Shown here: piece by piece, positions 39,137-64,000 of the stretch
Layout of the letters: every line of letters begins with the position of its first letter
How positions within the stretch are numbered: the first letter of the stretch is position 1
Source of the DNA: a virus
Length of the DNA stretch: 64,000 bases
Virus record (IMG/VR): IMGVR_UViG_3300032322_002561
Location: 1 to 64,000 of that record
Strand: one strand, 5' to 3'
Notes under the pieces: generated by a model
The model's database searches: none
What the model was told of the DNA's origin: nothing
What the model saw: the letters and a program-made list of their open reading frames with translations, nothing else
Position numbers and translations under genes: made by a program

Positions 39137-39142
39137 CAGAAG

Positions 39143-39448
39143 ATGAATACCAACGACTTGATAAATCACGCCCGTGCTAGATTTGACCATGAAGTGGCAC
39201 GACGTGTGTTAAAGGAAAAGTACGAAGCCAAAATGTTGTTTGCCCATTGTGGTGGAATGTTCCGGGCTGGTCCAGAATTGATCAACATCTTAAATTGTTG
39301 TACTTGTAACAAGGCTGTGATTTTAGATTTATATGAAACTCCGGTGAGTGTGGATGTTCTTGAACTTAAAAAGTTGGCCGAGCAACGCTGGCAAGAACAA
39401 ATGACTGCCTGGCAAATCGAATTTGAGGAAACATCAAAAAAAAGATGA
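39143..39448 (+). CDS. Small conserved phage protein, Cys-containing
   Basis: A 101-aa protein. I chose the ATG giving MNTNDLINHARARFDHEVAR because upstream sequence in this frame only offers a TTG inside the promoter. A helical, charged N-terminus is followed by FAHCGGMFRAGPELINILN and CCTCNKAVILDLYETPV, then a helical end. It resembles a small family seen in other marine T4-like phages with a GGxFxAxPELI motif. I know of no function. C36, C52, C53 and C55 could bind a metal, although there are only four. Its stop overlaps the next ATG by four bases, which ties it to the glycosyltransferase-like genes. Confidence 0.65.
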   Translation: MNTNDLINHARARFDHEVARRVLKEKYEAKMLFAHCGGMFRAGPELINILNCCTCNKAVILDLYETPVSVDVLELKKLAEQRWQEQMTAWQIEFEETSKKR

Positions 39449-40248
39449 CCACGGGTGCATTGATATTTGCCTTCAACAATGAAAAAATTGATTATGTAAG
39501 TTTGGCTGCTTGGAACGCAAAAAACATACAACGCCATCTGGGCATTGGCACAGCAGTTGTTACCGATGCAGACACTGTTCCTGATGCGTTTGAACATGTG
39601 ATCAAAATTGATCCTGATATGACAAACACCGAGTCAAGATATTTTGAAGATATCAAAACTTCGGTAACCTGGCATAATCGCAATCGCATGGACGCATTTG
39701 AGGTGTCGCCATGGCAAAAAACTATTTTGCTAGATGCTGATTATGTGGTGGCCAGCAACAGTCTATTGCCAACACTGGAATGCAAGCAGGATTTTTTGTG
39801 CTACAAGGATGCATATGATGTTTCGCACGTGACTGATTTTAGTGGCCTCAACTCCTTTGGTTCCATGTGTTTGCCCATGTGGTGGGCCACGGTAGTTGTG
39901 TTTGAGAGGTCACGCAAAGCAAAAATGATATTTGACTGTATGAAAATGATTAAACAACATTGGTCACACTATAGAAATCTGTACGGCATACAAAAAAAGA
40001 CCTACCGAAATGACTTTGCCTTGAGCATAGCCCTGGGCATAGTAAGTGGACAAACCTGGCGGGCAGAATCGTTGTCAGGTAGCATGGCCTCAGTCATGCC
40101 TGAACATGAATTAACACAGCTGGATACGGATCACTATCAAATACGGTATCAGAATCGTGATAACCAACCGCGCACAATATCTTGGAAAAACATGGACTTT
40201 CATGCCATGGGCAAAAGCCACCTGGAGGCCATAATTGCGTCCCATTGA
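39445..40248 (+). CDS. GT-A-like glycosyltransferase
   Basis: A 267-aa protein with the layout of small GT-A (GT8-like) enzymes. Residues 1-90 form a nucleotide-binding half with a KTILLDADYVV strand; DAD is in the position of the DxD motif that binds the sugar-nucleotide metal. Later segments GSMCLPMWWATVVVFERSRK and RNDFALSIALGIVSG resemble acceptor-side parts of this fold, and a late His (DFHAMGKSH) could be a metal ligand. It starts on the ATGA of the preceding gene, and its end overlaps the next gene, a probable paralogue, by 14 bases. Sugar donor and acceptor cannot be read from the sequence. Confidence 0.65.
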   Translation: MTTGALIFAFNNEKIDYVSLAAWNAKNIQRHLGIGTAVVTDADTVPDAFEHVIKIDPDMTNTESRYFEDIKTSVTWHNRNRMDAFEVSPWQKTILLDADYVVASNSLLPTLECKQDFLCYKDAYDVSHVTDFSGLNSFGSMCLPMWWATVVVFERSRKAKMIFDCMKMIKQHWSHYRNLYGIQKKTYRNDFALSIALGIVSGQTWRAESLSGSMASVMPEHELTQLDTDHYQIRYQNRDNQPRTISWKNMDFHAMGKSHLEAIIASH

Positions 40249-40987
40249 AGAACAAGGCTACCTTGTGGTGGCCACACAACATTATGTTCACAACGCTGTA
40301 AAATTGATAGAAAGCTTTAGGCAACAACATGCCACGGCGCGAGTGTGTCTGCTGACTGACCAAGCTCTTGAGCACAAACTTTTTGATCATGTTAGAATCA
40401 TAGACAATCCCAATCTTGAAAATGCCTGGGCCAATGACTGGCAAGTATTTCGAAAATCTCCATTTAGAGAAACCATCAAACTTGAAGCTGACATGTTGAT
40501 AGCATCACCTATTGATCACTGGTGGTCTTTGTTTAGACATCGTGATGTTGTTATCAGCACCGGTTGCCGTAACTGGCACGGTGAACTCAGCACAGCTAGA
40601 CAATATCGTAAAACTTTTGATGCCAATTGTTTGCCTGATGTCTATAATGCCATCACCTACTGGCGTTTGAGTCAAACAGCCAAGGAATTTTTTGATTGTG
40701 TTCGTGACATATTTGAAAACTGGGAACATTATAAAAAGCTGATTAAATTTCCTGAGTCAGTGCCCAGTACCGATTTGGTTTATGCCATGGCGGCGGTAAT
40801 TGTAGGGCAAGACAAAGTTACCATGCCCTTTACAACATACCCACAGGTGGTGCACATGAAGTCGCATCATGCTGGCACACAAGGCAGGGATTGGACCAAA
40901 GAATTGGTATGGGAAATGGATCCATTGCGCATAAACACTGTGGCACAGTGGGGAGCCTTTCACTATCATGTCAAGGATTGGATATGA
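40235..40987 (+). CDS. GT-A-like glycosyltransferase, paralogue of the preceding gene, TTG start
   Basis: A 250-aa protein resembling its upstream neighbour. GYLVVATQHYVHNAVKLIES is the first strand-helix unit. ETIKLEADMLIASPIDHWW holds the DxD-like position as EAD, and STDLVYAMAAVIVGQDK and HMKSHHAGTQG follow as in the neighbour. I see no ATG in a suitable place; TTG with GGAGG six bases upstream is the best start and lies inside the preceding gene. It overlaps the next gene by four bases (ATGA). Likely a sugar transferase acting with its paralogue, but EAD in place of DxD leaves metal use uncertain. Confidence 0.6.
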   Translation: MRPIEEQGYLVVATQHYVHNAVKLIESFRQQHATARVCLLTDQALEHKLFDHVRIIDNPNLENAWANDWQVFRKSPFRETIKLEADMLIASPIDHWWSLFRHRDVVISTGCRNWHGELSTARQYRKTFDANCLPDVYNAITYWRLSQTAKEFFDCVRDIFENWEHYKKLIKFPESVPSTDLVYAMAAVIVGQDKVTMPFTTYPQVVHMKSHHAGTQGRDWTKELVWEMDPLRINTVAQWGAFHYHVKDWI

Positions 40988-42224: not shown

Positions 42225-42233
42225 AACAGTATC

Positions 42234-43178
42234 ATGCCCGAGCAAAATTATCTTGAACTCAAGTTAGAAAATGATTTATTACTGGAAACCTCAGAGTTTG
42301 TGAAGTTTTGTGTGGCTCATCAACAACAACATATTGTGCTACGGGTCAACAACGAAGCTCACTGTTTAACTTATTGTGGCGTGTATGATATTCTTGATCA
42401 GTTTGATTTTGCTTCTGTAACCATAATAACTGCCAATGCCTTGGAACAGCATCCGCAATACAAAATTGAAAAAAAAGTATGGACGCACTGGCTTCAAAAT
42501 ATTAAAACATTTGATTTTAATTATGATTATGCCTGGAATGAACAGAAACTGTTTGGGTGTTTTTATGGTAGACCCAGTGCGCCAAGACTGGGTATTGCCA
42601 CACACTTGGCTCAGCATCATTCCAGCCGATCACTTATACGCACCAAATTTGATTTTGAACGAGAAGAATCTCGAAAACTTTTTGATTTGCAAAGACTGTT
42701 TGCCTGGCAACCAGAAATTATAAATCATTTACATTTGCTGAACAATCAACAATATATTGGTGATCAATACTATGATCGCGGTCACTACGATCAAGCCAAC
42801 ACTCTCAGTCACATGTATAAACATTTTTTGATTGACATTGTAGCGGAACCAGTTTGCGAAGGGCAAAGTTTTTACCCCACTGAAAAAGTTGTACGAGCCA
42901 TGTTGTGTAAGCGGCCATTTATTGTCATGGCATCACAAAATTATTTGGAATACTTGCGTCAAATGGGGTTTCATACATTTTTTGAATTTTGGAATGAAGA
43001 ATACGATGCTTATGATGCCAAGAATCGCTACATGAAAATACTAGATCTGATAGATCATTTGGCCAAAAAAACACATGCTGAAATGGTAGATCTTTATTAT
43101 GCAATGACCTTTCAGCTAGAGCATAATTATAAGTTGATTGTCAGTCAATCTTATACCACAAAAATTTTACCAATATAA
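42234..43178 (+). CDS. TEK-motif glycosyltransferase-like protein
   Basis: A 314-aa member of the family found repeatedly in this window. The C-terminal core reads LIDIVAEPVCEGQSFYPTEK, then VVRAMLCKRPFIVMASQNYL, then YLRQMGFHTFFEFWNEEYD. E....TEK with a following PF and a hydrophobic strand resembles the donor site of GT10 fucosyltransferases. The N-terminal half (FVKFCVAHQQQHIVLRVNN, VTIITANALEQHP, FGCFYGRPSAPRLGIATHL) closely resembles the protein encoded at 45053-46102, its nearest relative here. It is followed after one base by the nucleotide-sugar dehydratase gene, which supports work on activated sugars. Confidence 0.6.
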   Translation: MPEQNYLELKLENDLLLETSEFVKFCVAHQQQHIVLRVNNEAHCLTYCGVYDILDQFDFASVTIITANALEQHPQYKIEKKVWTHWLQNIKTFDFNYDYAWNEQKLFGCFYGRPSAPRLGIATHLAQHHSSRSLIRTKFDFEREESRKLFDLQRLFAWQPEIINHLHLLNNQQYIGDQYYDRGHYDQANTLSHMYKHFLIDIVAEPVCEGQSFYPTEKVVRAMLCKRPFIVMASQNYLEYLRQMGFHTFFEFWNEEYDAYDAKNRYMKILDLIDHLAKKTHAEMVDLYYAMTFQLEHNYKLIVSQSYTTKILPI

Positions 43179-43179
43179 C

Positions 43180-44208
43180 ATGTCCAAACAAGTATTGATC
43201 ACAGGCGGTGCTGGTTTCATTGCACATCACATGATTGAGCATATCATACAGACCACGACCTGGAACGTGATTTGCCTGGATCGTCTTGATTTCAGCGGAA
43301 ATTTAAATCGTCTGCACGAGATATTAGCAAAATTTTTGCCGCAAGATCAAAGTCGAGTCAAGATTGTGTATCATGATCTCAAAGCTGAAATTAATTCTAT
43401 GATTGCGGCCGATATCGGGCAGGTAGACTATGTGTTGCATCTTGCGGCCAGTAGTCATGTTGATCGTAGCATATCAAGACCCATGGATTTTGTCATGGAC
43501 AACGTGGTTGGTACTGTGAATTTGTTGCAGTGGGCCAGAACACAAAACAATTTAGAAAAATTCATGTATTTCAGCACGGATGAAATTTTTGGTCCTGCAC
43601 CTGCTGGTGTGGCCTACAAAGAACGAGATAGGTACAACTCTACAAATCCTTATTCAGCCAGCAAGGCTGCTGGCGAGGAAATGTGTGTGGCTTTTGAAAA
43701 CACCTATGGCCTACCCATAGTGATCACACATACCATGAATGTGTTTGGTGAGCGGCAACATCCAGAAAAATTTATTCCACTGTGTGTGCGCAAGGTCCTG
43801 GCTGGTGAAACCATCAAGATTCACAGCAACAAGGACCGCACACAAGCTGGTAGCAGACACTACATTCATGCCAAGGATGTGGCTGCAGGTGCCATGTTTA
43901 TTTTAAATGTCAGCCCTGACAATGTAGTTAAAGATTACGGCGGAGCTCGGTGTCCCAAATTTAATTTGGTAGGTGCTGAAGAAATTGATAATCTTGCTCT
44001 GGCTCAATTGGTGGCGCAGTCTGTGGGGAAACCTTTGCATTATGAACTTGTGGATTTTCACAGCAGTCGCCCAGGGCATGATCTTAGATATGCACTCAAC
44101 GGTGATTTCATGGCTTCCCTGGGCTGGAAGCCAACAATCAAACTGTCGGATCGCATTCAGCAAGTGGTAGCATGGACCCTGCAAAATCCGCAATGGATAC
44201 AATCATGA
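43180..44208 (+). CDS. NAD-dependent nucleotide-sugar epimerase/dehydratase (dTDP-glucose 4,6-dehydratase-like)
   Basis: A 342-aa extended SDR enzyme. I start at MSKQVLITGGAGFIAHHM rather than at an ATG 42 bases upstream because the NAD loop TGGAGFI normally begins a few residues from the N-terminus. HLAASSHVDRSI is typical of dTDP-glucose 4,6-dehydratases. STDEIFG (T133, D134, E135) has the Asp-Glu pair used for dehydration in RmlB, and Y158 and K162 in YSASK form the YxxxK motif. THTMNVFGERQHPEKFIP and GSRHYIHAKDVAAG complete the pattern. It likely makes a 4-keto-6-deoxy sugar nucleotide, which the DegT-type aminotransferase at the right end could aminate. Confidence 0.85.
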   Translation: MSKQVLITGGAGFIAHHMIEHIIQTTTWNVICLDRLDFSGNLNRLHEILAKFLPQDQSRVKIVYHDLKAEINSMIAADIGQVDYVLHLAASSHVDRSISRPMDFVMDNVVGTVNLLQWARTQNNLEKFMYFSTDEIFGPAPAGVAYKERDRYNSTNPYSASKAAGEEMCVAFENTYGLPIVITHTMNVFGERQHPEKFIPLCVRKVLAGETIKIHSNKDRTQAGSRHYIHAKDVAAGAMFILNVSPDNVVKDYGGARCPKFNLVGAEEIDNLALAQLVAQSVGKPLHYELVDFHSSRPGHDLRYALNGDFMASLGWKPTIKLSDRIQQVVAWTLQNPQWIQS

Positions 44209-45056
44209 CCAAGCCTGTGTTACCTTTTGTGGAAATCATGGCCACACAGGCCTGCAATATCAGTTGTACAGGTTGTACAAATTACAGTGATCTCAATCAC
44301 AAAGGATGGTTGTCCTGGGAACAAGCTCGAGCACAAATTACGCCATGGCTACAACGAGTCGACATTCCTGATTTTGGTATTCTTGGTGGAGAACCTTTGT
44401 TGAATCCTGAAATACGCGACTGGATCCGTGGCATAAGAGAACTCATGCCCAAGGCACAGATAAGATTTACCACAAATGGGTTATTGTTAGACAAGAATCT
44501 TGATATCGTTGATTTAGCAGCAGAAGTGGGAAACATTGTTTTTAAAATTGGAGTACACACAGACAGTTTAGCCATTGAACAAACAATTGATTATATTTTA
44601 AATAGATTTGATTGGCAACCAGTGACCGAGTTTGGTATCAATCGGTTACTCACTAAAAACAAATTTAGATTTCAAATAAATCGGCCAACTACTTTTTGGA
44701 AAAGTTTTCGAGGTGACTATACAAACATGCAACCTCACAACAGTAATCCAGCCGAGGCTTTTTCAATTTGTTGCCAGAAGACTTGTCCATTACTATATCA
44801 AGGAAAAATATACAAATGCAGCACCAGTGGTTTACTGTTAGATGTGTTAGAAAAATTTGGGCACCAAGACAACACCGAGTGGCTTCCGTTTATTAGCCAA
44901 GGATTACAGCCAGATTGCACAGATCAACAATTACAAGAATTTTTGAATAATTTTGGACGTCCACACAAGATCTGTGGCCAATGTCCAACACAAAAAGATC
45001 TGGGCAGTAAAATAGTGCATCTACAAAACGTGCATACCAAAAAAATCAAATCATGA
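44205..45056 (+). CDS. Radical SAM protein, short, with C-terminal Cys pairs
   Basis: A 283-aa enzyme. I choose the ATG that overlaps the previous stop (MTKPVLPFVEIMATQACNIS). C17, C21 and C24 form the CX3CX2C cluster site; GGEP is at residues 61-64. The barrel is short and ends with FSICCQKTCPLLYQGKIYK, CSTSG and later KICGQCP, a set of Cys that suggests an auxiliary iron-sulphur cluster of reduced SPASM or twitch type. Unlike the five radical SAM genes further on, it has no N-terminal cluster domain. It lies between the dehydratase and a TEK protein with overlaps on both sides, so it most likely modifies a sugar-type intermediate, though a peptide substrate cannot be excluded. Confidence 0.85.
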   Translation: MTKPVLPFVEIMATQACNISCTGCTNYSDLNHKGWLSWEQARAQITPWLQRVDIPDFGILGGEPLLNPEIRDWIRGIRELMPKAQIRFTTNGLLLDKNLDIVDLAAEVGNIVFKIGVHTDSLAIEQTIDYILNRFDWQPVTEFGINRLLTKNKFRFQINRPTTFWKSFRGDYTNMQPHNSNPAEAFSICCQKTCPLLYQGKIYKCSTSGLLLDVLEKFGHQDNTEWLPFISQGLQPDCTDQQLQEFLNNFGRPHKICGQCPTQKDLGSKIVHLQNVHTKKIKS

Positions 45057-46102
45057 ACACGTGCTTGCCAATATCTGTACAAACACAAGATCGAAAAATT
45101 TATCGTAAAGATAGATTAGTTGCGGCCTTTTTTCAAGCACGAGAACAGAATAAAAATTTAGAAATAGATTTTTACCCTGAGGGTAGTTGTGCCACGTCAT
45201 TGCGATTGTATGAAATTTTGGATGAACTTTGTGAAAAATACAATTTTGATAAATCACGAATCACAATCAAAACTGCCAATCTTTTAGAACAACATGATCA
45301 CTACCGTATAGTTTGTGTTCCTAGTTACTGGTATGAGATTCGGGAAATCCAGGCCTGGGTGACCAAGAATTCCATAGATACTGGAATTATGCCCACGCGG
45401 CATTTTGGTTGCTTTGTGAGTAGAAGTACCTGGTCCAGACTATGGGTTTCCACGTATCTTAACAAACATCACGCAGATAAAACTTTGCAAACTTATCACT
45501 ATGATCGTACCAGACAAAACTACAATGGCAACGGCTATGTGGGTCTTGATGATCTTTTTCAGTTTGGTTGCAATATCATACCTGACTGTGCAAATTTTTT
45601 GACCACGTGTCCTAGAACCATTGATCTTGATTTTTTAAAAACGTATAAAAATGCAAAATCGTTATTTCAGCACGGCGACAGTTACTATCCAATTCAAGTA
45701 CCTGCCAACATGAATTTGCTGAACTACTATCATGACATATTTGTAGACATTGTTACAGAACCAAATGTCATGGGCACAAACTTTTTAGTCACTGAAAAAC
45801 TTTGGAGATGCATTGTGGCCAGGAGACCTTTTATTGTGCTTGGTACTGCAAACTATTTGCATAATTTGAGAAAGTTGGGATTTGACACTTTTTATCAGTA
45901 CTGGGACGAGAGTTATGATGGACAAATTGGACAAACCAGAATTGGTCATATGCTAGAAGTTATTGACAGGTTGGCGACTTGGGATACTGAACAATGCAGT
46001 CAGACACTCAACCGCATGCAACCCATACTTGATCATAATTTACAAGTTTTTAAATCGCTTGATTACAACAAACTTGCCAAGGTATTTGACATCAATGACT
46101 GA
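45053..46102 (+). CDS. TEK-motif glycosyltransferase-like protein
   Basis: A 349-aa paralogue of the protein encoded at 42234-43178. Shared segments include RITIKTANLLEQHDHYR, HFGCFVSRSTWSRLWVSTYL, then FVDIVTEPNVMGTNFLVTEK, LWRCIVARRPFIVLGTANYL and NLRKLGFDTFYQYWDESYD. VTEKLW followed by a PF strand is the closest match in the window to the GT10 fucosyltransferase signature. The start is on the ATGA of the radical SAM gene before it, and the end overlaps the next gene by 8 bases. Confidence 0.65.
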   Translation: MNTCLPISVQTQDRKIYRKDRLVAAFFQAREQNKNLEIDFYPEGSCATSLRLYEILDELCEKYNFDKSRITIKTANLLEQHDHYRIVCVPSYWYEIREIQAWVTKNSIDTGIMPTRHFGCFVSRSTWSRLWVSTYLNKHHADKTLQTYHYDRTRQNYNGNGYVGLDDLFQFGCNIIPDCANFLTTCPRTIDLDFLKTYKNAKSLFQHGDSYYPIQVPANMNLLNYYHDIFVDIVTEPNVMGTNFLVTEKLWRCIVARRPFIVLGTANYLHNLRKLGFDTFYQYWDESYDGQIGQTRIGHMLEVIDRLATWDTEQCSQTLNRMQPILDHNLQVFKSLDYNKLAKVFDIND

Positions 46103-47489
46103 TAAATCAGATTTTTACTCAGCCGCCGAACACATGCGTGATGTGCTAGGCAAAGGCATGTGCCTGGCCAAGTGGAAACAGGTAAGCCTGCACTTGCCTA
46201 CCGGACTCAATAATTCATGTTATCACCCACCTTTGCATGAAATACCAGCTGATTTGTTGACTTCCAATCCCAGTGCCTTGCACAACACTCCTTACAAAAA
46301 ACAGCAAAGACAGATCATGCTACGTCAAGAACGTCCGCAAGAATGCAGTTATTGTTGGGCCATGGAAGACAACGGCAAACTCAGTGACAGACATTATAGA
46401 AGTGGTGAGCCTTGGGCTGCCAAAGATTTTGATACGATCATAAATTCCACAGGAGATGAAGATGTTTTACCTAGTTATGTTGAAGTCAATTTTAATCATG
46501 CTTGTAATCTTAAATGTAGTTACTGTAGTCCACAATTCAGTTCAACCTGGCAGCAAGAAGTGGATCAGCTTGGCGCTTATCCTACTAGCACTCAACACAA
46601 TGATCCTGATTATTTTAGGGGTCGCCGTAAGCCTATTCCTGTTCGCGAACATAATCCATACGTAGAAGCCTTTTGGCAGTGGTGGCCTACTTTGTATCCA
46701 GAGTTAGAACATTTTAGAATGACTGGTGGTGAGCCGCTCATGGACCGGAATACCTATCGTGTGTTTGATTATGTGCTAGAGAATCCTAGCAAAAAATTGC
46801 ATCTAAATGTGACCAGTAATTTCACTGTGGAAGAAAATTTGTGGAAAAAATACAAAGACTATGTGCGAAGGCTGTGTGACACTGATGATGTCAAACTGGA
46901 ACACTTCATGCAGTATGTCAGTCTTGATGCCTGGGGCGCACAGGCCGAATACATCAGACACGGTCTAGATTTTGAATTGTTGTGGGATCGAGTCAATCAA
47001 TACCTGGAAGAAATACCTTATAGAAACAGTTTGACATTTATAGTGACCATGAACAATTTGAGTGTAACCACACTGGCAAATTTGTTTGCTGGCATCCTTG
47101 GGTTAAGACAAACCTACAGCAAAACCTATCAACGTGTATGGTTTGACACACCAGTATTGCGTCAACCAGAGTGGCAAAGTCTACAGATTCTACCTGAAAG
47201 TTATGCTGAAAAATTAGAACACTTGTGGGCCTGGATGATTCGACAAACAGAACGTCCTGAAGATCCATTTCACGGTTTCAAGGATTATGAAATTGCCCGG
47301 CTGGATCGAGACATAGCCTGGATGCGTAGTGGTCAGAACCTGGACCCTGCAGTATTACAGTCCAGAAAAGCTGACTTTTACAGATTTTTCAACGAACATG
47401 ATCGCAGGCGCGGCACTGACTTTTTGAAGACTTTTCCTGACATGGCCTCTTGGTGGAAGGAGTGCGAATATCATGCTAGGCAATCATAA
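46095..47489 (+). CDS. Radical SAM protein with N-terminal twitch/SPASM-like domain (1 of 5)
   Basis: A 464-aa enzyme. I chose the ATG giving MTDKSDFYSAAEHMRDVLGK because the frame upstream overlaps the preceding gene by over 130 bases. An N-terminal cluster domain has C23 (GMCLAKW), C42 (NNSCYHPP) and the pair C84/C87 (ECSYCW), like a twitch or SPASM domain placed before the barrel. The catalytic CX3CX2C is C137, C141, C144 (ACNLKCSYC), and TGGEPLMDRN follows. It is most similar to the gene two positions on (SCHHPP, ECSYC/CEYC versions). The family is known as twitch-domain radical SAM proteins and substrates are unknown. Confidence 0.85.
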   Translation: MTDKSDFYSAAEHMRDVLGKGMCLAKWKQVSLHLPTGLNNSCYHPPLHEIPADLLTSNPSALHNTPYKKQQRQIMLRQERPQECSYCWAMEDNGKLSDRHYRSGEPWAAKDFDTIINSTGDEDVLPSYVEVNFNHACNLKCSYCSPQFSSTWQQEVDQLGAYPTSTQHNDPDYFRGRRKPIPVREHNPYVEAFWQWWPTLYPELEHFRMTGGEPLMDRNTYRVFDYVLENPSKKLHLNVTSNFTVEENLWKKYKDYVRRLCDTDDVKLEHFMQYVSLDAWGAQAEYIRHGLDFELLWDRVNQYLEEIPYRNSLTFIVTMNNLSVTTLANLFAGILGLRQTYSKTYQRVWFDTPVLRQPEWQSLQILPESYAEKLEHLWAWMIRQTERPEDPFHGFKDYEIARLDRDIAWMRSGQNLDPAVLQSRKADFYRFFNEHDRRRGTDFLKTFPDMASWWKECEYHARQS

Positions 47490-54699: not shown

Positions 54700-54797
54700 A
54701 ATGGATTCGTAATCTCATCGAACGTATACGTCTTGAAATACGCTATAGAAAAAAACTAAAAGAACTACGCAAACGCGATCCGTTCATTTATAAATGA
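54696..54797 (+). CDS. Small basic protein, 33 aa
   Basis: I translated this gene by hand: MKWIRNLIERIRLEIRYRKK, then LKELRKRDPFIYK. It overlaps the previous stop and the next start by four bases each (ATGA), which is strong support for a real gene. It is very rich in Arg and Lys and should form one long amphipathic helix. I recall near-identical short proteins ending in KRDPFIYK from other aquatic T4-like phages, so it is likely conserved. Function unknown. Confidence 0.7.
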   Translation: MKWIRNLIERIRLEIRYRKKLKELRKRDPFIYK

Positions 54798-54952
54798 TCA
54801 CTCCTTGTGTAAACATCTGTATCATGACCAATGGCGTGTGCGAAGGGTGTGGTCGCACCATTGATGAAATTGCAGAGTGGACCTTGTATACCGATCAAGA
54901 GCGGCTGACAATCATGCAAAGACTAGGACATGAGCAACATACTGGGAATTAG
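54794..54952 (+). CDS. DUF1289-family small Cys protein
   Basis: A 52-aa protein, MITPCVNICIMTNGVCEGCG, then RTIDEIAEWTLYTDQERLTI, then MQRLGHEQHTGN. It matches the bacterial DUF1289 family (PCxxxCxxxx..CxGCxRTxxEIxxWxxxxxxE), with four Cys (C5, C9, C16, C19) that should form a metal site. Function of the family is not established in my knowledge; bacterial members are often found near iron-sulphur or redox genes, which would suit a cluster full of radical SAM enzymes. It overlaps the gene before it by four bases and the carbamoyltransferase after it by 23 bases. Confidence 0.8.
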   Translation: MITPCVNICIMTNGVCEGCGRTIDEIAEWTLYTDQERLTIMQRLGHEQHTGN

Positions 54953-56384: not shown

Positions 56385-57406
56385 AGATAAGTTTCAAGAC
56401 CGCCACGTCTGCGTAAATCCTGAGTGCAACAACTTATGCCACCATCCCAAAAATAACTGTGACGCAGTTCTGAAATAATAGGGTTGATTCGGTGACGTTT
56501 GCAGTAATCAAATACTTCGCGATTGTAGGCACTGAATATCACATTTTCTTCATCTAGCACAAGACAGTTGACATCAAACACCGTTTCAGCCACAAAGCCA
56601 GTCCACTTGTTCAAATAGGTGTCTACAAATTGAGTGAACTCAGGTGTGGGAGTTTGTCCTTGCACATACCAGGCCCCAGGATTTGATTCGTATTTGAACT
56701 TGCCTACCTCCATGGCGGCCCAAATTGAACTATCCCAGATTTTACATATATCCCAGCCAGGAAAATCTCTGGCAAGATCAAGATTAACATCGTGCTTGCT
56801 GCTCAACAACACGCCTGGCTTGAGAATAGCAAACACGGCATCGCCGTGACCATCTGTGACAGCTTCGTGTATTCTATACTCTGGCCCCAGCACATTGTCC
56901 ACAATCCAGCGTGTTTGTTCTGGCTTCAAGAAATCACTGTTGTCAAAAAACACATCACGGCCCACACGCACAATACACGAAGCCGACGCACCATTCAAGA
57001 TACAATCTGGATCCCAAGCACTGCGATGTGGGTTAACCACCGATTCTGAAAACTTGGTGCAGACCTTGTCCAGTTCTGGCACTGCCAACACACGCAACAA
57101 ACGATCACCTAGAGTAATTTGCCAATCTCTGGGAGTCAAGGGCGGTAGTGGAGCTCCCCCGCCTTCGGTTTGAAACCACACAAATTCATCTTTGTTAGGC
57201 AGTTCAGGTCTGTGAACCAGGGCACCATACTGTTCAATTGTACGTTGCAGATTGTCAAGATCTTCCTGGGTTTCAGCCAGGATCTGTTGTAGTTGACAGC
57301 GTACCTGAGCATTGTCAATGAAATCAAAGTAATCGGGCGTGTAAGCACGACCCACAATGACTTCTTCAAGTGGTTGCCACGAGGTGTATGAATTAACTTT
57401 GGCCAT
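56381..57406 (-). CDS. Amidinotransferase-like enzyme (guanidino-group transferase superfamily)
   Basis: A 341-aa protein with the build of glycine/inosamine amidinotransferases (GATM/StrB type). It begins KVNSYTSWQPLEEVIVGRA, the usual N-terminal strand. TDGHGDAVFAILKPGVLLSS (near residue 185) holds the catalytic His with its Asp partner. The C-terminus LRHSYFWDGGISCCTQDLRR carries the nucleophilic Cys (C326 or C327) in the expected GGxxCxTxDLRR context. Such enzymes move an amidino group from arginine to an amine, giving a guanidino compound; deiminases share the fold. It is co-directional with the two TEK genes before it (14-base overlap). The substrate is unknown; an amino sugar made by the neighbouring enzymes is one possibility. 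Confidence 0.85.
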   Translation of the reverse strand: MAKVNSYTSWQPLEEVIVGRAYTPDYFDFIDNAQVRCQLQQILAETQEDLDNLQRTIEQYGALVHRPELPNKDEFVWFQTEGGGAPLPPLTPRDWQITLGDRLLRVLAVPELDKVCTKFSESVVNPHRSAWDPDCILNGASASCIVRVGRDVFFDNSDFLKPEQTRWIVDNVLGPEYRIHEAVTDGHGDAVFAILKPGVLLSSKHDVNLDLARDFPGWDICKIWDSSIWAAMEVGKFKYESNPGAWYVQGQTPTPEFTQFVDTYLNKWTGFVAETVFDVNCLVLDEENVIFSAYNREVFDYCKRHRINPIISELRHSYFWDGGISCCTQDLRRRGGLETYL

Positions 57407-58589
57407 GGATTTTTTGATGCAAGTTATTTAAACGATCTAATTTTGATGTTGCAAATAGTCGTTGATTGTGATCAAGATCCGCCTGGCACTGTTTGTATAG
57501 ACTATCTAGACCCTGACTATGCGCCTGTTTGATAGCTTCGCACAATTTGATCCATCTATGAGTGTGATTGGGTTCTAGATCATATGTGTTATCTAACACA
57601 TCGTCAAACACTCGATATCCTAGATCACGCAATTGTTGTAGACTGCCAGCACCGCCAGCAACAAAAAACAACTGACCATGTTTGATGGGTTTAAATGTTT
57701 TTTCCGTGATAAAAGCACCGCCGCTTTGATCTACATCAAATTGACTTTCTAACACAATGTTGCAATAGCTGTCAACATGGTATTTGAATACGGTAATTCC
57801 ATGATCATTGCGTTGATCCTGCGTGAGATCGTCGCTGAAGTAGGGTGTTTGTGATACAAACTTCTCCAGTGACCAACGCAATTGTGAAATACTGTCAATC
57901 TCCAGCGGGTTGTCGCAGGTGCTGTCTTGATCAGTGGGTTTTTCGCAGTAACTCCAGTAACTGTTTTCCAACAAATTGTTTTTTTTCAAATCAGCCATGA
58001 TTGTGGCTCGCCACCATTTGTGCAGTCTAGACAGCACTGTGAAATCTTTCGAACGTGGTCGTGTGTGTATGGGCAAAGGTGCTTCACGGTTACGAGCATG
58101 ATACCAAAGTTCAAAATCTACAAAATACACAAAATTTTCTAGATTCTCGGCTGCGCTGTTGCTGCTCACAAACACATAACAATTTTTAGGTAGTGCATGT
58201 TGTTGCACCAAGCTGTCAAGTCTTGATTTTATGCGTTGCGGGTTGTCGCCCTCATGATACAAAAATAACACACGCAGTTGATGTTGTTTGAGTCGGTTGC
58301 GCACAGCAGACCCCATGAGTTCAAAATAGTCAATTTCAAAATCAAAAAATCCTATACCAATGGGATAAAAAGTATTTTCTGGCAGTGATGATTGCAGTTC
58401 ATGAATATTGATTTTGGCTCCATGTACTTGACAATATTCTTCCAGGCGCAAGGGAATGGTGTAGGGCCAGTGTTGTCCAAATTCTCTCCAGCTTTGAGTA
58501 TACGGCCGGCCCTGATGTCGAGCTAGAGCTGGATATATTTTGCCCTTGATGGTTCTGTCTGCTACAAAATTAAATTCTAAATTCATCAA
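57393..58589 (-). CDS. TEK-motif glycosyltransferase-like protein
   Basis: A 398-aa family member. The core reads CNIVLESQFDVDQSGGAFIT then EKTFKPIKHGQLFFVAGGAG, LQQLRDLGYRVFDDVLDNTYD. The LF in place of PF and the longer loop before TEK set it apart from the others. The N-terminal half has RVLFLYHEGDNPQRIKSRL and CYVFVSSNSAAENLENFVY, which look like a Rossmann-type domain, and a middle SKDFTVLSRLHKWWRATIMA that parallels the RPHRKAL segment of the 370-aa paralogue. It overlaps its neighbours by 20 and 14 bases. Confidence 0.6.
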   Translation of the reverse strand: MMNLEFNFVADRTIKGKIYPALARHQGRPYTQSWREFGQHWPYTIPLRLEEYCQVHGAKINIHELQSSLPENTFYPIGIGFFDFEIDYFELMGSAVRNRLKQHQLRVLFLYHEGDNPQRIKSRLDSLVQQHALPKNCYVFVSSNSAAENLENFVYFVDFELWYHARNREAPLPIHTRPRSKDFTVLSRLHKWWRATIMADLKKNNLLENSYWSYCEKPTDQDSTCDNPLEIDSISQLRWSLEKFVSQTPYFSDDLTQDQRNDHGITVFKYHVDSYCNIVLESQFDVDQSGGAFITEKTFKPIKHGQLFFVAGGAGSLQQLRDLGYRVFDDVLDNTYDLEPNHTHRWIKLCEAIKQAHSQGLDSLYKQCQADLDHNQRLFATSKLDRLNNLHQKIHGQS

Positions 58590-59667
58590 ACATTCCTAAA
58601 AGTTCGGTCCAAAGCCGTTGACTAAATCCACCGTTGTAAAAATGATCAAAGTTATGCTCTACCACGGGCAAGCATCTGCGGTGTATTTCTTGACGCTCTT
58701 GCTGGCTCAAATTGTCAAGGTCTTTAAGTAATTTTACAATCTTTTCCATGCGCAGTCTATCATCGATTTCTTCATCATAGCTTTCATCAAATATGTCACC
58801 AAAGGTTTGGAATCCATATTCACGCATGTATGCCAAACTGCCTGCTGGTGCTACCAACACAAAAGGCATTTCTAGAGCAATGGCCTTGAAAGTTTTTTCT
58901 GTGATATGCAAACGGCGTCCAAAATATACAGTTTCTGTGGCCACGTATATCAAACTGTCAGCAGACTCTTCAAAATTGGTAAGCCAACAGCTGGCCATGT
59001 GTTGTGTGTCCTCGCCGCTGAACAATCTTGGCAATGTGGCTGCGGCAAACACTTGCTCAATGTCGGGATATATGTTATTATACTTAGAAGCAACTTGTGC
59101 TATATCAATGTTTTCGTACACACATGTTCTTGGAGCACTGATATGATTGTGCGCTAGATCATGTTTGAACACGTTATAAAGAAACAATACTCTATGATCA
59201 CGCTTGCCACCTACTATGCGATTGGGACTGATAAAAGTACGACTGGGTCGACGATTGCGAGCTCGAGCGATCAGAAAGGTTTTATCGTATCCACGGAACC
59301 AGTCCTGACTGGCCCAGCCGTGGAAAAAGTAGTAATGTGGAGTCCAGCCATACTGTTTGCACATAGCATCCACAAATTCTCCGCGTTCACTGACCACAAT
59401 GTGTCCAGGTGGTGTGTTTGGATATAAAATATCTCGATTACGTCTTTTTACATCTTGAAACAGGGGTTCGTGTAGATCCAGCCACACTGGTTCTTGATCA
59501 TGCATGTAAACATAGTCGGTTTCTATGATGTCATCCCTACCAAGATTAAATAAATGATCCTTGTCAGTGTGCCCAAACGGGTCACAAAAAAACAATCTTG
59601 TGCCTGGTCTGTGTTGTGCAAACCAAGGCCAAAATGTATGGTTGTAAATTTCATCAATTCTAATCAT
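58570..59667 (-). CDS. TEK-motif glycosyltransferase-like protein
   Basis: A 365-aa family member. The core is LIYVATETVYFGRRLHITEK, TFKAIALEMPFVLVAPAGSL and YMREYGFQTFGDIFDESYD. The N-terminal half has GTRLFFCDPFGHTDKDHLFN, VYMHDQEPVWLDLHEPLFQ and GHIVVSERGEFVDAMC; HDQEP is a notable acidic motif. HRVLFLYNVFKHDLAHNH is the middle strand. It starts at 59667 on a CATG that also holds the start of the plus-strand repeat protein, so its ribosome site lies inside the other gene. It leads a three-gene minus-strand unit with the next TEK gene and the amidinotransferase. Confidence 0.6.
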   Translation of the reverse strand: MIRIDEIYNHTFWPWFAQHRPGTRLFFCDPFGHTDKDHLFNLGRDDIIETDYVYMHDQEPVWLDLHEPLFQDVKRRNRDILYPNTPPGHIVVSERGEFVDAMCKQYGWTPHYYFFHGWASQDWFRGYDKTFLIARARNRRPSRTFISPNRIVGGKRDHRVLFLYNVFKHDLAHNHISAPRTCVYENIDIAQVASKYNNIYPDIEQVFAAATLPRLFSGEDTQHMASCWLTNFEESADSLIYVATETVYFGRRLHITEKTFKAIALEMPFVLVAPAGSLAYMREYGFQTFGDIFDESYDEEIDDRLRMEKIVKLLKDLDNLSQQERQEIHRRCLPVVEHNFDHFYNGGFSQRLWTELLGMFDEFRI

Positions 59668-62662
59668 GTTTGACGTATTTTATATTGGGACTAAACCAAA
59701 TTTGTTTGCGCATGAGAAACCGTGTCGTGATATCACGCATGCACAGGAATTAAGTGGCACACGTTTTTGTTGGGTAGTGGATTATTTAACCGACTACACA
59801 GGCTTTGATTTTTTATGGGAACCCCCGCCCTGGCAGGCAGATTTTACACATGTTTGGCCCAGTCAGTGGGATCAGTACCATGCGGCATATTTGATTCCAA
59901 AACATGCCACAAGTCTTGATTATCACGCACACACCCAAACTCTTTGGCCCAAAAAGTTTCTAGACAATTATCAAACATTGGTGCCTTGTCAGTTTGATTA
60001 TTCATGGGTGCCACACCCGTGGGAACCACCATACATTTATGTGTTTGGTAATCAACACTATGCCAGCACCATCATGCCCACGGTGGAATATTATACACCA
60101 GGTGCCACAGAACGAAAGTTTGTTGATGACATAGCGGCTAGACTGTTGCCCTGTCGTGATAATTGGGAAATTCTTGAACCCATAGACCAAGAATCCTGGG
60201 ACTGGTCTTGGAGACCCGATCCAGGAGAACCTGCCTATATCTATGTGTTTGGCAATCAATGGAATCCGCCTGAATTCAAAGCCAGCGTGCGTTATGTTGT
60301 GCCCGGTGCCACACAAGTCAAATACATGGATCAGCGTACACGTCGACTACCACAGCCCGAACTGTTCCGTCACAATTTGCCTGTAGCAAAATTTGACTAC
60401 TCATGGGAACCCAATCCGTTTGATCCGCCCATGACCTATGTGTTTGGAAATCAATGGAATCCAGCAGTGCTAGAGCCCACGATAGTTTACAGCACTGGCG
60501 GCACAGAAATCAAGTATGTGGATGACATTGTGGCCACGATAGCCCAGGAAATGACATCATGGACTCTGTTAGACGATATAGAAACATTTGATTACAGTTG
60601 GAGACCCAATCCCACAGATCCGCCTTATATCTATGTGTTTGGAAATCAGTGGCTGACTCCTGAGCAACGTCCGGCTTTGCGTTATGCTGTGCCTGGAGCC
60701 ACTGAAATCAAATACATGCACGAACCTCGTGCTAGACGTGTAGGCAATCCTGAACTGTTTGTGCAATTGTATCCTTGTAACTTTGACTGGTCATGGGAAC
60801 CTGACCCTGGAAGCCCGCCTTATATCTACGTGTTCGGCAATCAATACTACCCCGCTGAAGTCATGCCCACAGTAGAATATCATGCGCCAGGTGCCACCGA
60901 GCGGAAATACATGGACGTGCCCGCACAGCTATTGCCGGATGACACATCGGCCTGGAAACTGTTGCATACCTGTGAATGGGACAAAACCTGGCGTCCAGAA
61001 CCAGGAAGTCCGGCCTACATTTATGTGTTTGGTAATCAGTGGTGGCCAGCAGAAAAAATGCCCACAGTAGAATATCACATGCAGGGTGCCACGGAACGCA
61101 AGTACATGACAGCGCCTGTGGCTCAACTACCTGTAGACATGACACAGTGGCATGTGCCCGAGGGCGTAGACGTGCGTGACATGGATTTTTCTTGGGTGCC
61201 CGATCCTGGTGAACCGCCTTACATATATCAGTTCGCTACACAACATCAAAAAACTGGTGGACCACAATACCGTGTGCCAGGCGCTGTTGAAGTCAAATAC
61301 TTGGATATGATGCGTGCCACAGTCACTAAAGAAGCTGTGCCCATATTTGAAATTGATCACTTGGATGGCAATGCCGGGCAGATTCCCAATACGGTGCGCC
61401 GCGTGCGTTACTTTGACAACTATCGAGACACCTTGATTCGCTTGGCTAAAAACCTCAAAGGCGAATACGAACATATATGGGTGTGCAGTAGCGTTTGTGA
61501 TTACACAGACTTTGACTTTAGTTGGCATCCAGAAATCTGGCAAAGCACCATGTTACATGTGTTTGCGTCAGACGGGGAAAAGTTTGGTGACACATTTTAC
61601 ATGCATGTGCCTACCTTTGCTGAACGTGCTGAGAAAAAAGAGTTGTTAGAATGGTACAGTGTAAACTATGTGTCACGTCGGAACGTGCCACGCAGGCCCT
61701 TGCCGATGATACAACACAATCATGACACACATGTCGAAGCAGTCAAAACCATGACATGGTCTGGGCCTTTGGCAGTGTTTGCCACAGAACCTGTAGAGCG
61801 AATTCCTCCTGTGCCACTATGGCGAGAAAAGACTAAAACGGTTGTGCCACTGAGTAAGGGTGCTAGTCAAGTCATAGTGCCCAAGGTGGCAGTGCCCTAT
61901 ATCAAAACTCAGTTGTATGATTATCCCTACATAGACAAGACACAACGACATCTTTGCAAAGAACAACCCTTGGACATAGTCTTCATTGACAACGGCGAAC
62001 CCAATGCTGAATCTAATTATCAGCACCTGGTGGAAGTGGCCAGCCTGACTTGGCGCAATCGTATACACCGCAGTACAGGAGTCACAGGCCGTGTGGCCGC
62101 ATATCATGCCGCAGCTGAACTAAGTAGCACACCTTGGTTTTTTGCTGTGTTTGCCAAGTTGCGTGTTGATAAAGATTTTGATTGGTTATGGCAACCAGAC
62201 CGTATGCAGGAACCCAAGCACTATATCTTCCATGCGTTTAATCCTGTGAATGGCTTGGAGTATGGGCACCAGGCCATGATTGCCTACAACAAACGATTGG
62301 TCCTGGCCAACCCAGGCACAGGACTTGACTTTACCTTGGATTCAGCACACGAAGTAGTGCCTATACTATCAGGTACGGCCCACTATACAGATTCGGCTTG
62401 GATGGCCTGGCGCACTGCGTTCCGCGAAGTAATCAAACTGCGTCACAGTTTGCCCAATGTAGAAAACGAATACAGATTAAACAAGTGGCTACAAGAAAAC
62501 AACGACAATGATCGTGCGATGTACAGTCATTTGGGTGCGCAGGATGCTGTGGAGTATTACGAATCTGTTAAAGGGGATGAAACAGAACTACGCAAGAGCT
62601 ATGACTGGGCCTGGTTGGCCAGTTATGCTTTGATCAAACGCAATCTAACAGCGAGTCAATAA
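59666..62662 (+). CDS. Tandem-repeat protein with glycosyltransferase-like C-terminus
   Basis: A 998-aa protein. After a diverged first unit (GFDFLWEPPPWQADFTHVWP) come seven tandem repeats, each about 65-68 residues, with core FDWSWEPDPGSPPYIYVFGN followed by Q(W/Y) and PGATERKYMD. An eighth, diverged unit (FDFSWHPEIWQSTMLHVFAS) lies near residue 615. The C-terminal 230 residues (DIVFIDNGEPNAESNYQHL, STPWFFAVFAKLRVDKDFDW, then SAWMAWRTAFREVIKL) share a plan with the protein encoded at 41298-42224, but the DxD motif is replaced by a FAKLRV strand. No signal peptide or membrane segment is seen. Similar proteins occur in other marine phages in my recollection. It overlaps its convergent neighbour by 29 bases. 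Confidence 0.8.
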   Translation: MFDVFYIGTKPNLFAHEKPCRDITHAQELSGTRFCWVVDYLTDYTGFDFLWEPPPWQADFTHVWPSQWDQYHAAYLIPKHATSLDYHAHTQTLWPKKFLDNYQTLVPCQFDYSWVPHPWEPPYIYVFGNQHYASTIMPTVEYYTPGATERKFVDDIAARLLPCRDNWEILEPIDQESWDWSWRPDPGEPAYIYVFGNQWNPPEFKASVRYVVPGATQVKYMDQRTRRLPQPELFRHNLPVAKFDYSWEPNPFDPPMTYVFGNQWNPAVLEPTIVYSTGGTEIKYVDDIVATIAQEMTSWTLLDDIETFDYSWRPNPTDPPYIYVFGNQWLTPEQRPALRYAVPGATEIKYMHEPRARRVGNPELFVQLYPCNFDWSWEPDPGSPPYIYVFGNQYYPAEVMPTVEYHAPGATERKYMDVPAQLLPDDTSAWKLLHTCEWDKTWRPEPGSPAYIYVFGNQWWPAEKMPTVEYHMQGATERKYMTAPVAQLPVDMTQWHVPEGVDVRDMDFSWVPDPGEPPYIYQFATQHQKTGGPQYRVPGAVEVKYLDMMRATVTKEAVPIFEIDHLDGNAGQIPNTVRRVRYFDNYRDTLIRLAKNLKGEYEHIWVCSSVCDYTDFDFSWHPEIWQSTMLHVFASDGEKFGDTFYMHVPTFAERAEKKELLEWYSVNYVSRRNVPRRPLPMIQHNHDTHVEAVKTMTWSGPLAVFATEPVERIPPVPLWREKTKTVVPLSKGASQVIVPKVAVPYIKTQLYDYPYIDKTQRHLCKEQPLDIVFIDNGEPNAESNYQHLVEVASLTWRNRIHRSTGVTGRVAAYHAAAELSSTPWFFAVFAKLRVDKDFDWLWQPDRMQEPKHYIFHAFNPVNGLEYGHQAMIAYNKRLVLANPGTGLDFTLDSAHEVVPILSGTAHYTDSAWMAWRTAFREVIKLRHSLPNVENEYRLNKWLQENNDNDRAMYSHLGAQDAVEYYESVKGDETELRKSYDWAWLASYALIKRNLTASQ
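59993..61376 (+). repeat. Seven tandem coding repeats of 195-204 bases
   Basis: Units begin at 59993, 60197, 60392, 60587, 60782, 60977 and 61181, giving lengths of 204, 195, 195, 195, 195 and 204 bases for the first six. Each codes for FDxSWxPxPxxPxYIYVFGN followed by a GAT-x-x-KYM segment. Units 2 and 4 share RY-x-VPGAT with a later RR and PELF, while units 1, 3, 5 and 6 share a VEY/IVY type with a later Trp, so the array alternates between two subtypes. Confidence 0.85.
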
Positions 62663-63710
62663 CATACTCAACTTCTAGATCTGTCAGTTCAGGATAGATA
62701 GGCAAACACAGGGTTCTGCGACTCAAGGCCGACGCAACACTGAGTACATCGGGTCCTGGAAATTCATCGTAAGCTGGTAGCTCATGCAAGGGTTCCCAAG
62801 ACAAAATCTTGGTTTCAATTCTGCGTATTTCAAGATTGCGTTGTAGGATATCACGCTTGTCTACATCAATCACAAACTTGTTGACAGCATGAGTTCTATG
62901 ATTGGTCTCGTCTATGAGACTGCGTGCTCGAGTACCACGCAAGCGTTCCAGCCAATACCCTGCAATTTTACTACGTCTGCGTTGCCAGTCATCTAAGTAC
63001 CGGGTTTTGACCATGAGTTGGGCACAGTCAACTTCACTCATTCTTGAATTGGTGCCAATCATTTGATGATTTGGTTTACCATTGTTGCGCCAACTTCGTG
63101 CAAAATCCAACATATTAATATCATCAGTAACTATGGCACCACCGTTGCCGTAACTGTTGAAATTTTTCATAGGGTCAAAACTTATGGCTGTTACATTGCC
63201 CACACGTCTACATGCATCACTGAGCCAGTGCTGAGCACCATCTTCAATTATGATAGCATTGTTGTTCAAGTATTCGTGTTTGTTGATGCTTTGCCCATAC
63301 AAGCCCACGGCCACTGTGGCCTGTACACTTTGTTCACGATCAATTTTCTTATGATCCATTTGACCGTAGGCATCGGTATCTACTATGGTCACAGTCCAGC
63401 CAGCACGTTGAAAGGCATTTATAGTGGCCACATAAGTCATGGCCGGTATCAACACACGCGGTGGCCTAGGCATGTAACCTTGAGTGGCATAATATTCGGC
63501 AATGATTTCCAAGGCTTGTGTGCCCGAATGACAGGTTACAGCATATTTGGTACCGTTCTTTTTGGCTAGCCAATTTTCTAATTCGGCTGTGTAGTTGCCG
63601 TCCATGAGTCGACCACTGCGTAAAACTTCATCAGTGGCATCTAGTATTTCTGTTCTGAGATTGTTATACTGTTTTTTGATTCCAGTAAACGGAATTTGCA
63701 AGCCATTCAT
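62634..63710 (-). CDS. DegT/DnrJ/StrS-type PLP-dependent sugar aminotransferase
   Basis: A 358-aa enzyme counted from MNGLQIPFTGIKKQYNNLRT; an ATG 27 bases further upstream (MSNKDFKYI extension) is also possible. The family usually begins with IPF followed by the first helix, so I prefer the shorter form. Landmarks are CHSGTQALEIIAEYYA (PLP phosphate site), PAMTYVATINAFQRAG, IIEDGAQHWLSDA (the Asp that pairs with the PLP ring) and SFDPMKNFNSYGNGGAIVTD with the Schiff-base Lys. Such enzymes aminate keto-sugar nucleotides. The product of the dehydratase at 43180-44208 or of the epimerase-type gene next to it could be its substrate. Confidence 0.9.
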   Translation of the reverse strand: MNGLQIPFTGIKKQYNNLRTEILDATDEVLRSGRLMDGNYTAELENWLAKKNGTKYAVTCHSGTQALEIIAEYYATQGYMPRPPRVLIPAMTYVATINAFQRAGWTVTIVDTDAYGQMDHKKIDREQSVQATVAVGLYGQSINKHEYLNNNAIIIEDGAQHWLSDACRRVGNVTAISFDPMKNFNSYGNGGAIVTDDINMLDFARSWRNNGKPNHQMIGTNSRMSEVDCAQLMVKTRYLDDWQRRRSKIAGYWLERLRGTRARSLIDETNHRTHAVNKFVIDVDKRDILQRNLEIRRIETKILSWEPLHELPAYDEFPGPDVLSVASALSRRTLCLPIYPELTDLEVEYVIDSLLDCV

Positions 63711-64000
63711 GATATATTTGAAATCCTTGTTCGACATCTACCTGTGGATCATATCCAAAATCTCGCTGTGCTGCTTCTATATTTAACGCACCGCGGCTGG
63801 GGAAATCCGCATCTTTGTCGTGAATTTCAATGCGCCCGCGACCTATCAACTCAACTATTTTTTGTGCGGCTTGTAAAAGTGTAACACTGTGACTCTTGGT
63901 GATGTTGTATGTTTTGTTTACTGCGTTTAAACTCAGTGCGGCACCCATTATGCCACGAGCGGCATCATCTACATAGGTAAAGTCCAAGGTTTCAGAAGCA
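63664..64000 (-). CDS. NAD-dependent sugar epimerase/dehydratase, C-terminal part (runs off window)
   Basis: The frame is open to the window edge, so only the last 112 residues are seen. ASETLDFTYVDDAARGIMGA has the typical (R/D)xFxYVDDxARG motif of extended SDR sugar enzymes (UDP-glucose 4-epimerase or GDP-mannose dehydratase type). TYNITKSHSVTLLQAAQKIV and RGALNIEAAQRDFGYDPQVD follow, again typical of the C-terminal substrate domain. An apparent start codon within the window would remove most of the protein and is not used. Its end overlaps the aminotransferase start by about 47 bases, so the two act from one message. The catalytic YxxxK lies outside the window. Confidence 0.85.
   Translation of the reverse strand, partial: ASETLDFTYVDDAARGIMGAALSLNAVNKTYNITKSHSVTLLQAAQKIVELIGRGRIEIHDKDADFPSRGALNIEAAQRDFGYDPQVDVEQGFQIYHEWLANSVYWNQKTV

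Follow-up and report, generated by a model that had tools for sequence, protein, structure and literature searches.

Gene content of the island

The island described here lies at positions 39,143–64,000 of a window that comprises bases 1–64,000 of the 236,309-base IMG/VR virus record IMGVR_UViG_3300032322_002561, a partial contig. An earlier note, made from the letters of the window alone, had described it as a 25-kb phage biosynthetic island combining sugar, carbamoyl, amidino and radical S-adenosylmethionine (SAM) chemistry. All enzyme types that it named were found at the positions it gave (Table 1), and only the three GT-A-like glycosyltransferase (GT) open reading frames (ORFs) lacked a confirming family match. 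It had overlooked two proteins, which we call X368 and REP998, as well as the partial nature of the contig, in which sugar genes run on beyond the window end at 64,000. From 39,128 to 56,384, the genes form an operon-like run on a single strand: adjacent ORFs overlap or nearly touch, with overlaps of 4–40 nt or gaps of at most 9 nt at 15 consecutive junctions between 39,128 and 54,699, and a 230-nt gap precedes the carbamoyltransferase gene.

Table 1. Features of the island and the adjoining tail genes, with positions in the window.
Feature	Position	Strand	Evidence and remarks
Two tail/virion structural ORFs, 599 aa and 322 aa	36308..39088	+	directly 5' of island; PHROG virion structural matches (599 aa protein)
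GT-A-like protein 1, 267 aa	39445..40248	+	DxD-like motif, no family hit; in sister lineages, homologues at cassette head
GT-A-like protein 2, 250 aa	40235..40987	+	phrog_1903 (E 1.6e-9), unknown function
GT-A-like protein 3 (GTA3 family), 312 aa	41286..42224	+	beside radical SAM array in L223, L224, L225, L228, L229
TEK-type protein 1	42234..43178	+	T-E-K motif; TEKa profile
RmlB-like NDP-sugar 4,6-dehydratase	43138..44208, start probably 43180	+	PF16363 (1e-49); TIGR01181 (244 bits); GGAGFI, TDE, YSASK motifs
Radical SAM RS0, no N-terminal twitch	44172..45056	+	PF04055 (9.5e-13); NF033640 34 bits
TEK-type protein 2	45053..46102	+	T-E-K motif; TEKa profile
N-twitch radical SAM 1	45963..47489, start probably 46095	+	NF033640 321 bits
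TEK-type protein 3	47473..48585	+	T-E-K motif; TEKa profile
N-twitch radical SAM 2	48578..49918	+	NF033640 305 bits
N-twitch radical SAM 3	49902..51161	+	NF033640 393 bits
N-twitch radical SAM 4	51158..52378	+	NF033640 334 bits
N-twitch radical SAM 5	52359..53672	+	NF033640 280 bits
X368	53593..54699, start probably 53644	+	fold without PDB match; 5' of carbamoyltransferase in 57/57 long loci
NodU/TobZ-type carbamoyltransferase	54930..56384	+	PF16861 (1.6e-47); PF02543 (3.4e-36); phrog_1601 (1.3e-91)
AGAT-family amidinotransferase, optional member	56381..57406	-	comparison with solved structures; Asp254 replaced by Ser141
TEK-type protein 4	57393..58589	-	T-E-K motif; conserved partner of amidinotransferase
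TEK-type protein 5 (TEK5)	58570..59667	-	T-E-K motif; GT-B-like model
REP998	59666..62662	+	seven 195–204 nt repeats and C-terminal domain resembling GTA3 in sequence
DegT/StrS aminotransferase	62634..63737	-	PF01041 (6.1e-55); pyridoxal phosphate (PLP) lysine in DPMKN
NDP-sugar epimerase/dehydratase, 3' end in window	63664..64000; complete ORF at contig 63664–64650, 328 aa	-	family searches on following sequence

Family searches agreed with the sugar-nucleotide enzymes that had been proposed, namely an RmlB-like dehydratase, a DegT aminotransferase and the end of an epimerase, whose ORF is completed beyond the window. The dehydratase stays below the equivalog cut-off for dTDP-glucose dehydratase (244 versus 365 bits on TIGR01181), with its family features and catalytic motifs (TDE/YxxxK) intact. 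The DegT protein reaches 187 bits against PF01041 (cut-off 19.8), its PLP lysine is kept in relatives, and its best PDB match is glutamine:scyllo-inositol transaminase. The NodU/TobZ-type carbamoyltransferase, also as predicted, has both the Carbam_trans_N and the Carbam_trans_C domain, with HDAA, HHxxHAA and GPRALG motifs that are intact here and kept in relatives.

All six proposed radical SAM proteins contain the CxxxCxxC motif, which is intact together with the N-terminal cysteine clusters. Five of them belong to the N_Twi_rSAM family (NCBIfam NF033640, curated cut-off 170 bits), with scores of 280–393 bits, whereas the protein at 44172–45056 fails the cut-off with 34 bits. Against solved structures, the radical SAM profile had as its best match an unnamed radical SAM protein (8vpo), followed by the peptide maturase SkfB (a weak match, E 7.5e-5) and by cytosylglucuronate decarboxylase, a sugar-nucleotide enzyme. 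A literature search on twitch radical SAM proteins in phages returned no relevant paper. The copy number differs among relatives; one of them, the capsid relative L224, has more than 10 N-twitch paralogues in tandem, headed by GT-A-like genes. Two further radical SAM proteins are encoded outside the island, at 375–1472 and 1984–3498 (minus strand), adjoining SbcC/SbcD-like genes.

The proposed set of three GT-A-like and five TEK-type glycosyltransferase-like proteins held in part. The T-E-K motif is present in all five TEK-type proteins and the GT-A-like ORFs have DxD-like motifs, but Pfam searches with these three ORFs yielded no GT match, and 40235–40987 alone among them matches a family well (phrog_1903). 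REP998 contains repeats of about 65 residues (W.PDP..PPYIYVFGNQ....PTVEY..PGATE.KYM) and, due to the resemblance of its C-terminal domain to GTA3, looks like an enzyme. Its length ranges from 600 to 1222 residues among relatives, so the number of repeats probably varies between phages.

Structure prediction, which the earlier note had proposed for the proteins without assignment, gave a confident AlphaFold2 model for X368 (predicted local distance difference test (pLDDT) 86, predicted template modelling score (pTM) 0.84) and a GT-B-like model for TEK5. The best PDB matches of the TEK5 model (pLDDT 84.5) are nearly all GT-B glycosyltransferases, but weak (best E 3e-3, TM 0.33). The X368 model, however, had no match in PDB and in BFVD matched solely phage proteins of unknown function, one of them from Agrobacterium phage Atu_ph07. 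Sequence profiles of X368 and TEK5 gave nothing significant against PDB.

The amidinotransferase-like enzyme had no match in Pfam or NCBIfam. Profile comparison with solved structures revealed full-length homology to HsvA, AGAT, StrB1 and SxtG (E 1.5e-47 to 1.7e-42), placing it, as a homologue with an altered catalytic residue, in the AGAT family. Its residues C326, H187 and D189 correspond to the catalytic Cys407, His303 and Asp305 of AGAT and are conserved in 81 orthologues. In contrast, the position of Asp254, which we take to be the catalytic residue in the FDAAD motif of AGAT, is occupied by Ser141, invariantly across the clade; the aspartate is kept in the homologues from Campylobacter phage CP220 and one Deltaproteobacterium. 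Due to this replacement, neither the donor nor the acceptor of the enzyme can be assumed. The scores do not single it out as a StrB-type inosamine-phosphate amidinotransferase, since StrB is not nearer than AGAT, SxtG or HsvA (in phmmer, StrB1 scores 43.9 bits and AGAT 54.6; by profile, StrB1 scores 153.7 bits and HsvA 165.9). Elsewhere in the source contig, the amidinotransferase profile matched at 84733–85827, 108874–109920 and 217396–218313, with 113, 29 and 22 bits.

Conservation of the cassette in related phages

With the amidinotransferase as query, we found relatives on 133 viral stretches and compared the best 80 (81–100% identity, contigs up to 364 kb), which include near-duplicates and several fragmentary records and are often cut by contig ends. 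Within 10 kb of these 80 loci, orthologues were present for TEK5 in 75, the carbamoyltransferase in 73, TEK4, X368 and radical SAM 5 in 69 each, radical SAM 4 in 68 and DegT in 64. Most loci have a near-constant order: epimerase, DegT, REP998, TEK5, TEK4, amidinotransferase, cargo, carbamoyltransferase, X368 and an array of 3–4 radical SAM genes. The labels for this analysis came from hidden Markov models made from the cassette itself and therefore over-call generic families (DegT, dehydratase) in unrelated genomes.

X368 has at least 539 relatives, and for 57 of the best 80 loci there was enough downstream sequence for a tally. The carbamoyltransferase follows X368 in every one of the 57. Of these loci, 39 have the amidinotransferase, and the 18 that lack it mostly keep REP998 and usually TEK4 and TEK5; in L223, the amidinotransferase-TEK4-TEK5 block is absent as a whole and the remaining cassette is contiguous. 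N-twitch radical SAM proteins were found in 11 and the amidinotransferase in 3 of 13 partial records from close capsid relatives. The amidinotransferase is thus an optional insert beside a slot for exchangeable cargo, while by gene content the obligate set consists of the 3–4 radical SAM genes, X368, the carbamoyltransferase and REP998. Judged by its model, X368 is the most interesting unknown of the cassette, since a confident prediction without PDB match coincides with a strict link to the carbamoyltransferase.

The cargo slot between amidinotransferase and carbamoyltransferase holds an FkbM-family methyltransferase in about 17 loci. In the sister phage L225 (2754–5245, minus strand) it is occupied by an AMP-binding ligase and a tandem pair of proteins from the tryptophan halogenase family (PF04820, E about 1e-91); a literature search on cassettes of halogenases and glycosyltransferases found no relevant paper. 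At other places in the cassette, the genes encode methyltransferases, a cytidylyltransferase-like protein and enzymes of the PIG-L deacetylase and Gfo/Idh oxidoreductase types.

Mean pairwise identity in 21 relatives was 92% for the capsid, 67–72% for the carbamoyltransferase and radical SAM 4 and 5, and 55–59% for DegT, X368 and TEK5; the 85% of the amidinotransferase is partly a selection effect, as the 80 loci were picked by similarity to this protein. Synonymous sites are saturated and the ratio of nonsynonymous to synonymous polymorphism (pN/pS) is 0.17–0.37 in the scanned cassette genes, which are therefore under purifying selection. Active-site blocks are kept in about 64–81 orthologues.

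The search for co-occurrence in related contigs, which the earlier note had proposed, thus uncovered a cassette that recurs in fixed order. Its genes do not occur independently or at random and their active sites are mostly kept, the loss of Asp254 in the amidinotransferase being the exception. Synteny, operon-like overlaps, purifying selection and the mostly kept active-site residues together give strong support to the proposal that the genes form one biosynthetic set.

Related modules in other genomes

Megablast found no close relatives among isolated phages, and no isolate carrying the cassette was found in the phage collection. In tblastn searches against isolated phages there were no matches to X368, GTA3 or TEK5, and remote ones only to the amidinotransferase, the carbamoyltransferase and the radical SAM proteins. 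As judged from sequence, associations of such genes appear repeatedly in phages of unrelated lineages and in certain bacteria, with five settings observed. In the marine single-cell virus AG-345-D19, one 8-kb contig brings an amidinotransferase together with an N-twitch radical SAM protein and a carbamoyltransferase (51%). In cyanophage S-SCSM2R, a homologous amidinotransferase lies beside KdsA and KdsB (CMP-KDO genes) and a glycosyltransferase, but it is 31% identical and homologues of the radical SAM proteins and carbamoyltransferase of the cassette were not found in that stretch. An N-twitch radical SAM array that includes an amidinotransferase homologue (166 bits) occurs in two Bdellovibrionia genomes, and in the one examined the homologue adjoins Asp/Arg hydroxylases. 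By inspection of the sequence, N-twitch radical SAM genes of the isolated Vibrio phage K566 alternate with genes for glycosyltransferase-like proteins. The fifth setting is that of Campylobacter phages CP220 and CPt10. Chromosomal arrays with numerous N-twitch radical SAM genes, an amidinotransferase homologue and Asp/Arg beta-hydroxylases were noted in metagenome-assembled genomes of Bdellovibrionia, which are predatory bacteria (L236, L243, L238, L291).

The CP220/CPt10 block, published in 2010 and described as an 'interchangeable module' swapped between phages (PMC2853527), lies near baseplate genes; besides five radical SAM genes it has one gene resembling glycine amidinotransferases and two resembling NDP-sugar transferases. 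It resembles the island in having a radical SAM, amidinotransferase and GT-A module beside baseplate genes. However, its radical SAM proteins reach just 16–24 bits on the N-twitch profile of the island, its amidinotransferase scores 37 bits on the island profile and keeps the DAA motif, and none of 15 proteins tested matched the carbamoyltransferase, X368, REP998 or TEK proteins. By these comparisons, the block is independent of the island cassette.

Pelagimyophages and cyanomyophages have a host recognition cluster, described in 2020; this hypervariable island combines tail fibres with radical SAM cassettes and numerous glycosyltransferases and has been proposed to alter the host O-chain (PMC7029224). 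Our island fits this definition, as it adjoins tail genes and contains glycosyltransferase-like genes and radical SAM cassettes. Yet, compared by description, the cluster is variable, whereas the island keeps a fixed core order across many records and includes carbamoyl and amidino chemistry. The earlier statement that single members, but not the whole set, were known holds for the exact set, but similar modules had been published in 2010 (PMC2853527) and 2020 (PMC7029224). Radical SAM, amidinotransferase and glycosyltransferase genes near phage tail genes have been noticed since 2010 without explanation. Sorting the obligate from the optional genes across many giant phages makes a definite pathway, open to gene-by-gene testing, out of a loosely described 'auxiliary gene' region.

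Proposed function and alternatives

With somewhat better than even confidence, and on the basis of sequence and predicted structures, we consider the island to be a modular locus for glycan biosynthesis and tailoring beside the tail genes. Gene content, synteny, the division into obligate and optional members, selection and conserved motifs are observed; the sugar (from the enzyme families), the order of the steps, the target and the biological role are inferred. The 4,6-dehydratase, epimerase and DegT aminotransferase would produce an activated amino-deoxy sugar, and the three GT-A-like proteins, the five TEK proteins and REP998 would assemble or attach it. As an obligate step, the carbamoyltransferase, together with X368, would O-carbamoylate the sugar. 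The N-twitch radical SAM enzymes may perform C-H chemistry, for example dehydrogenation, deoxygenation or epimerisation, the type of reaction catalysed by the twitch radical SAM enzymes of aminoglycoside pathways (BtrN, MoaA-type). Where present, the amidinotransferase module could add a guanidino-type decoration, and the neighbouring slot could supply exchangeable modifiers, including FkbM methylation and halogenation. The location directly after tail genes, which places sugar-nucleotide enzymes, glycosyltransferase-like proteins and tailoring cargo next to them, suggests, by analogy to the proposal for pelagimyophages, a glycan for tail or virion proteins or for the host envelope, which might change adsorption or superinfection. 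The FkbM, Gfo/Idh, PIG-L and cytidylyltransferase-like cargo is typical of sugar tailoring and also speaks for a glycan. In favour, too, are the weak resemblance of the TEK5 model to GT-B enzymes, the homologous amidinotransferase beside KdsA and KdsB in S-SCSM2R, the arrangement in Vibrio phage K566 and the published modules near tail or baseplate genes.

Several observations weigh against this interpretation. None of the glycosyltransferases proposed for the island matches a curated GT family; the catalytic aspartate of the amidinotransferase is lost throughout its clade; protein-type modifiers occur beside some radical SAM genes elsewhere (in L225, tryptophan halogenases and an AMP ligase; in Bdellovibrionia, Asp/Arg hydroxylases); and the T4 late promoter motif TATAAATA has two sites in the window, which equals the chance expectation, so that late expression is unsupported.

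The protein-type modifiers would fit an alternative in which N-twitch/SPASM radical SAM proteins, carbamoyltransferase, amidinotransferase and halogenases act on side chains of a phage protein, either the REP998 repeats or a tail protein, and the glycosyltransferases add sugars. The seven repeats of REP998 are rich in tryptophan and tyrosine, and the closest solved radical SAM relatives are 8vpo and then the peptide maturase SkfB; yet the SkfB match is weak and followed by a sugar-nucleotide enzyme, REP998 itself appears enzyme-like by its C-terminus, no precursor-like small ORF was identified, and the sugar-nucleotide genes and FkbM/PIG-L/Gfo-Idh cargo are better suited to a glycan. We therefore regard protein or peptide modification as unlikely, if worth keeping in mind. 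That the genes are unrelated auxiliary functions which piled up in a hypervariable region and share no product is quite improbable: although the cargo varies and 18 of the 57 loci lack the amidinotransferase, the fixed order and orientation of the core, the invariable pairing of X368 and carbamoyltransferase and the strong selection largely refute it.

Phage glycosyltransferases often act on DNA, and DNA had been among the targets proposed for the island. Its carbamoyltransferase shares the Pfam pair of a published 5-hydroxymethylcytosine carbamoyltransferase (PMC8670742) and could, with the glycosyltransferases, act on 5-hydroxymethylpyrimidines. We consider this very improbable, because no ThyA/dCMP-hydroxymethylase family member, the thymidylate synthase-type partner of such a system, was found in the source contig or in eight relatives of 251–364 kb. 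Moreover, the locus sits with tail genes rather than replication genes, and carbamoyltransferases in unmodified contigs are reported to be flanked by, for example, group 1 glycosyltransferases (PMC8670742). A search for QueC found none in the source contig and weak partial matches in three relatives.

The co-occurrence of these enzyme families in aminoglycoside pathways (StrB, StrS/StsC, StrE/RmlB, TobZ, twitch radical SAM), to which the earlier note had pointed for StrB, StrS, StrE/RmlB and TobZ, stands at the family level. It does not extend to the individual enzymes, as the DegT protein is nearest to a scyllo-inositol transaminase, the amidinotransferase is not nearer to StrB than to AGAT, SxtG or HsvA and has its catalytic aspartate replaced, and the dehydratase remains below its equivalog cut-off; the many glycosyltransferase-like proteins and the phage context also differ. 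A diffusible aminoglycoside-like molecule, directed against competitors during infection, would draw on this family overlap, but nothing specific favours it, the many glycosyltransferase-like proteins argue against it, and the scan of the cassette recognised no gene for resistance or export; we judge it extremely improbable.

Returning to glycan biosynthesis, the product could conceivably, although we would not expect it, belong to a previously unseen class of phage glycans or glycopeptides, in which a sugar chain receives carbamoyl and, in some phages, guanidino or halogen groups and is altered by several different radical SAM enzymes in series. In that case X368, as partner of the carbamoyltransferase, would have a new fold, either of an enzyme or of a carrier, and the amidinotransferase without Asp would use a new donor or acceptor. 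If true, this would provide new carbohydrate-modifying enzymes and a handle on surface change by giant phages.

Genomic setting

Upstream of the island are T4-like baseplate and virion genes (PHROG matches). The baseplate is closest to those of the isolated jumbo phages GAP32, CBB and PA5oct, with 41% identity of the wedge protein to that of Cronobacter phage GAP32, and a T4-like capsid is found in 23 of 28 long records of related phages. In a scan of composition, the GC content of the island showed no deviation of the kind expected from recently acquired foreign DNA. The tail region contains one ORF of unusual length (5065 aa, 20304–35501).

Past the window, the source contig encodes a ThyX-like ORF (64901–65566) and, at 75833–79664, envelope- or sugar-type genes for a hexapeptide transferase, a PstS-like protein (from sequence), a group 1 glycosyltransferase and a calcineurin-like phosphoesterase. 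B12 radical SAM proteins are encoded at a second locus, at 103–114 kb, along with GTP cyclohydrolase I and a sugar dehydratase.

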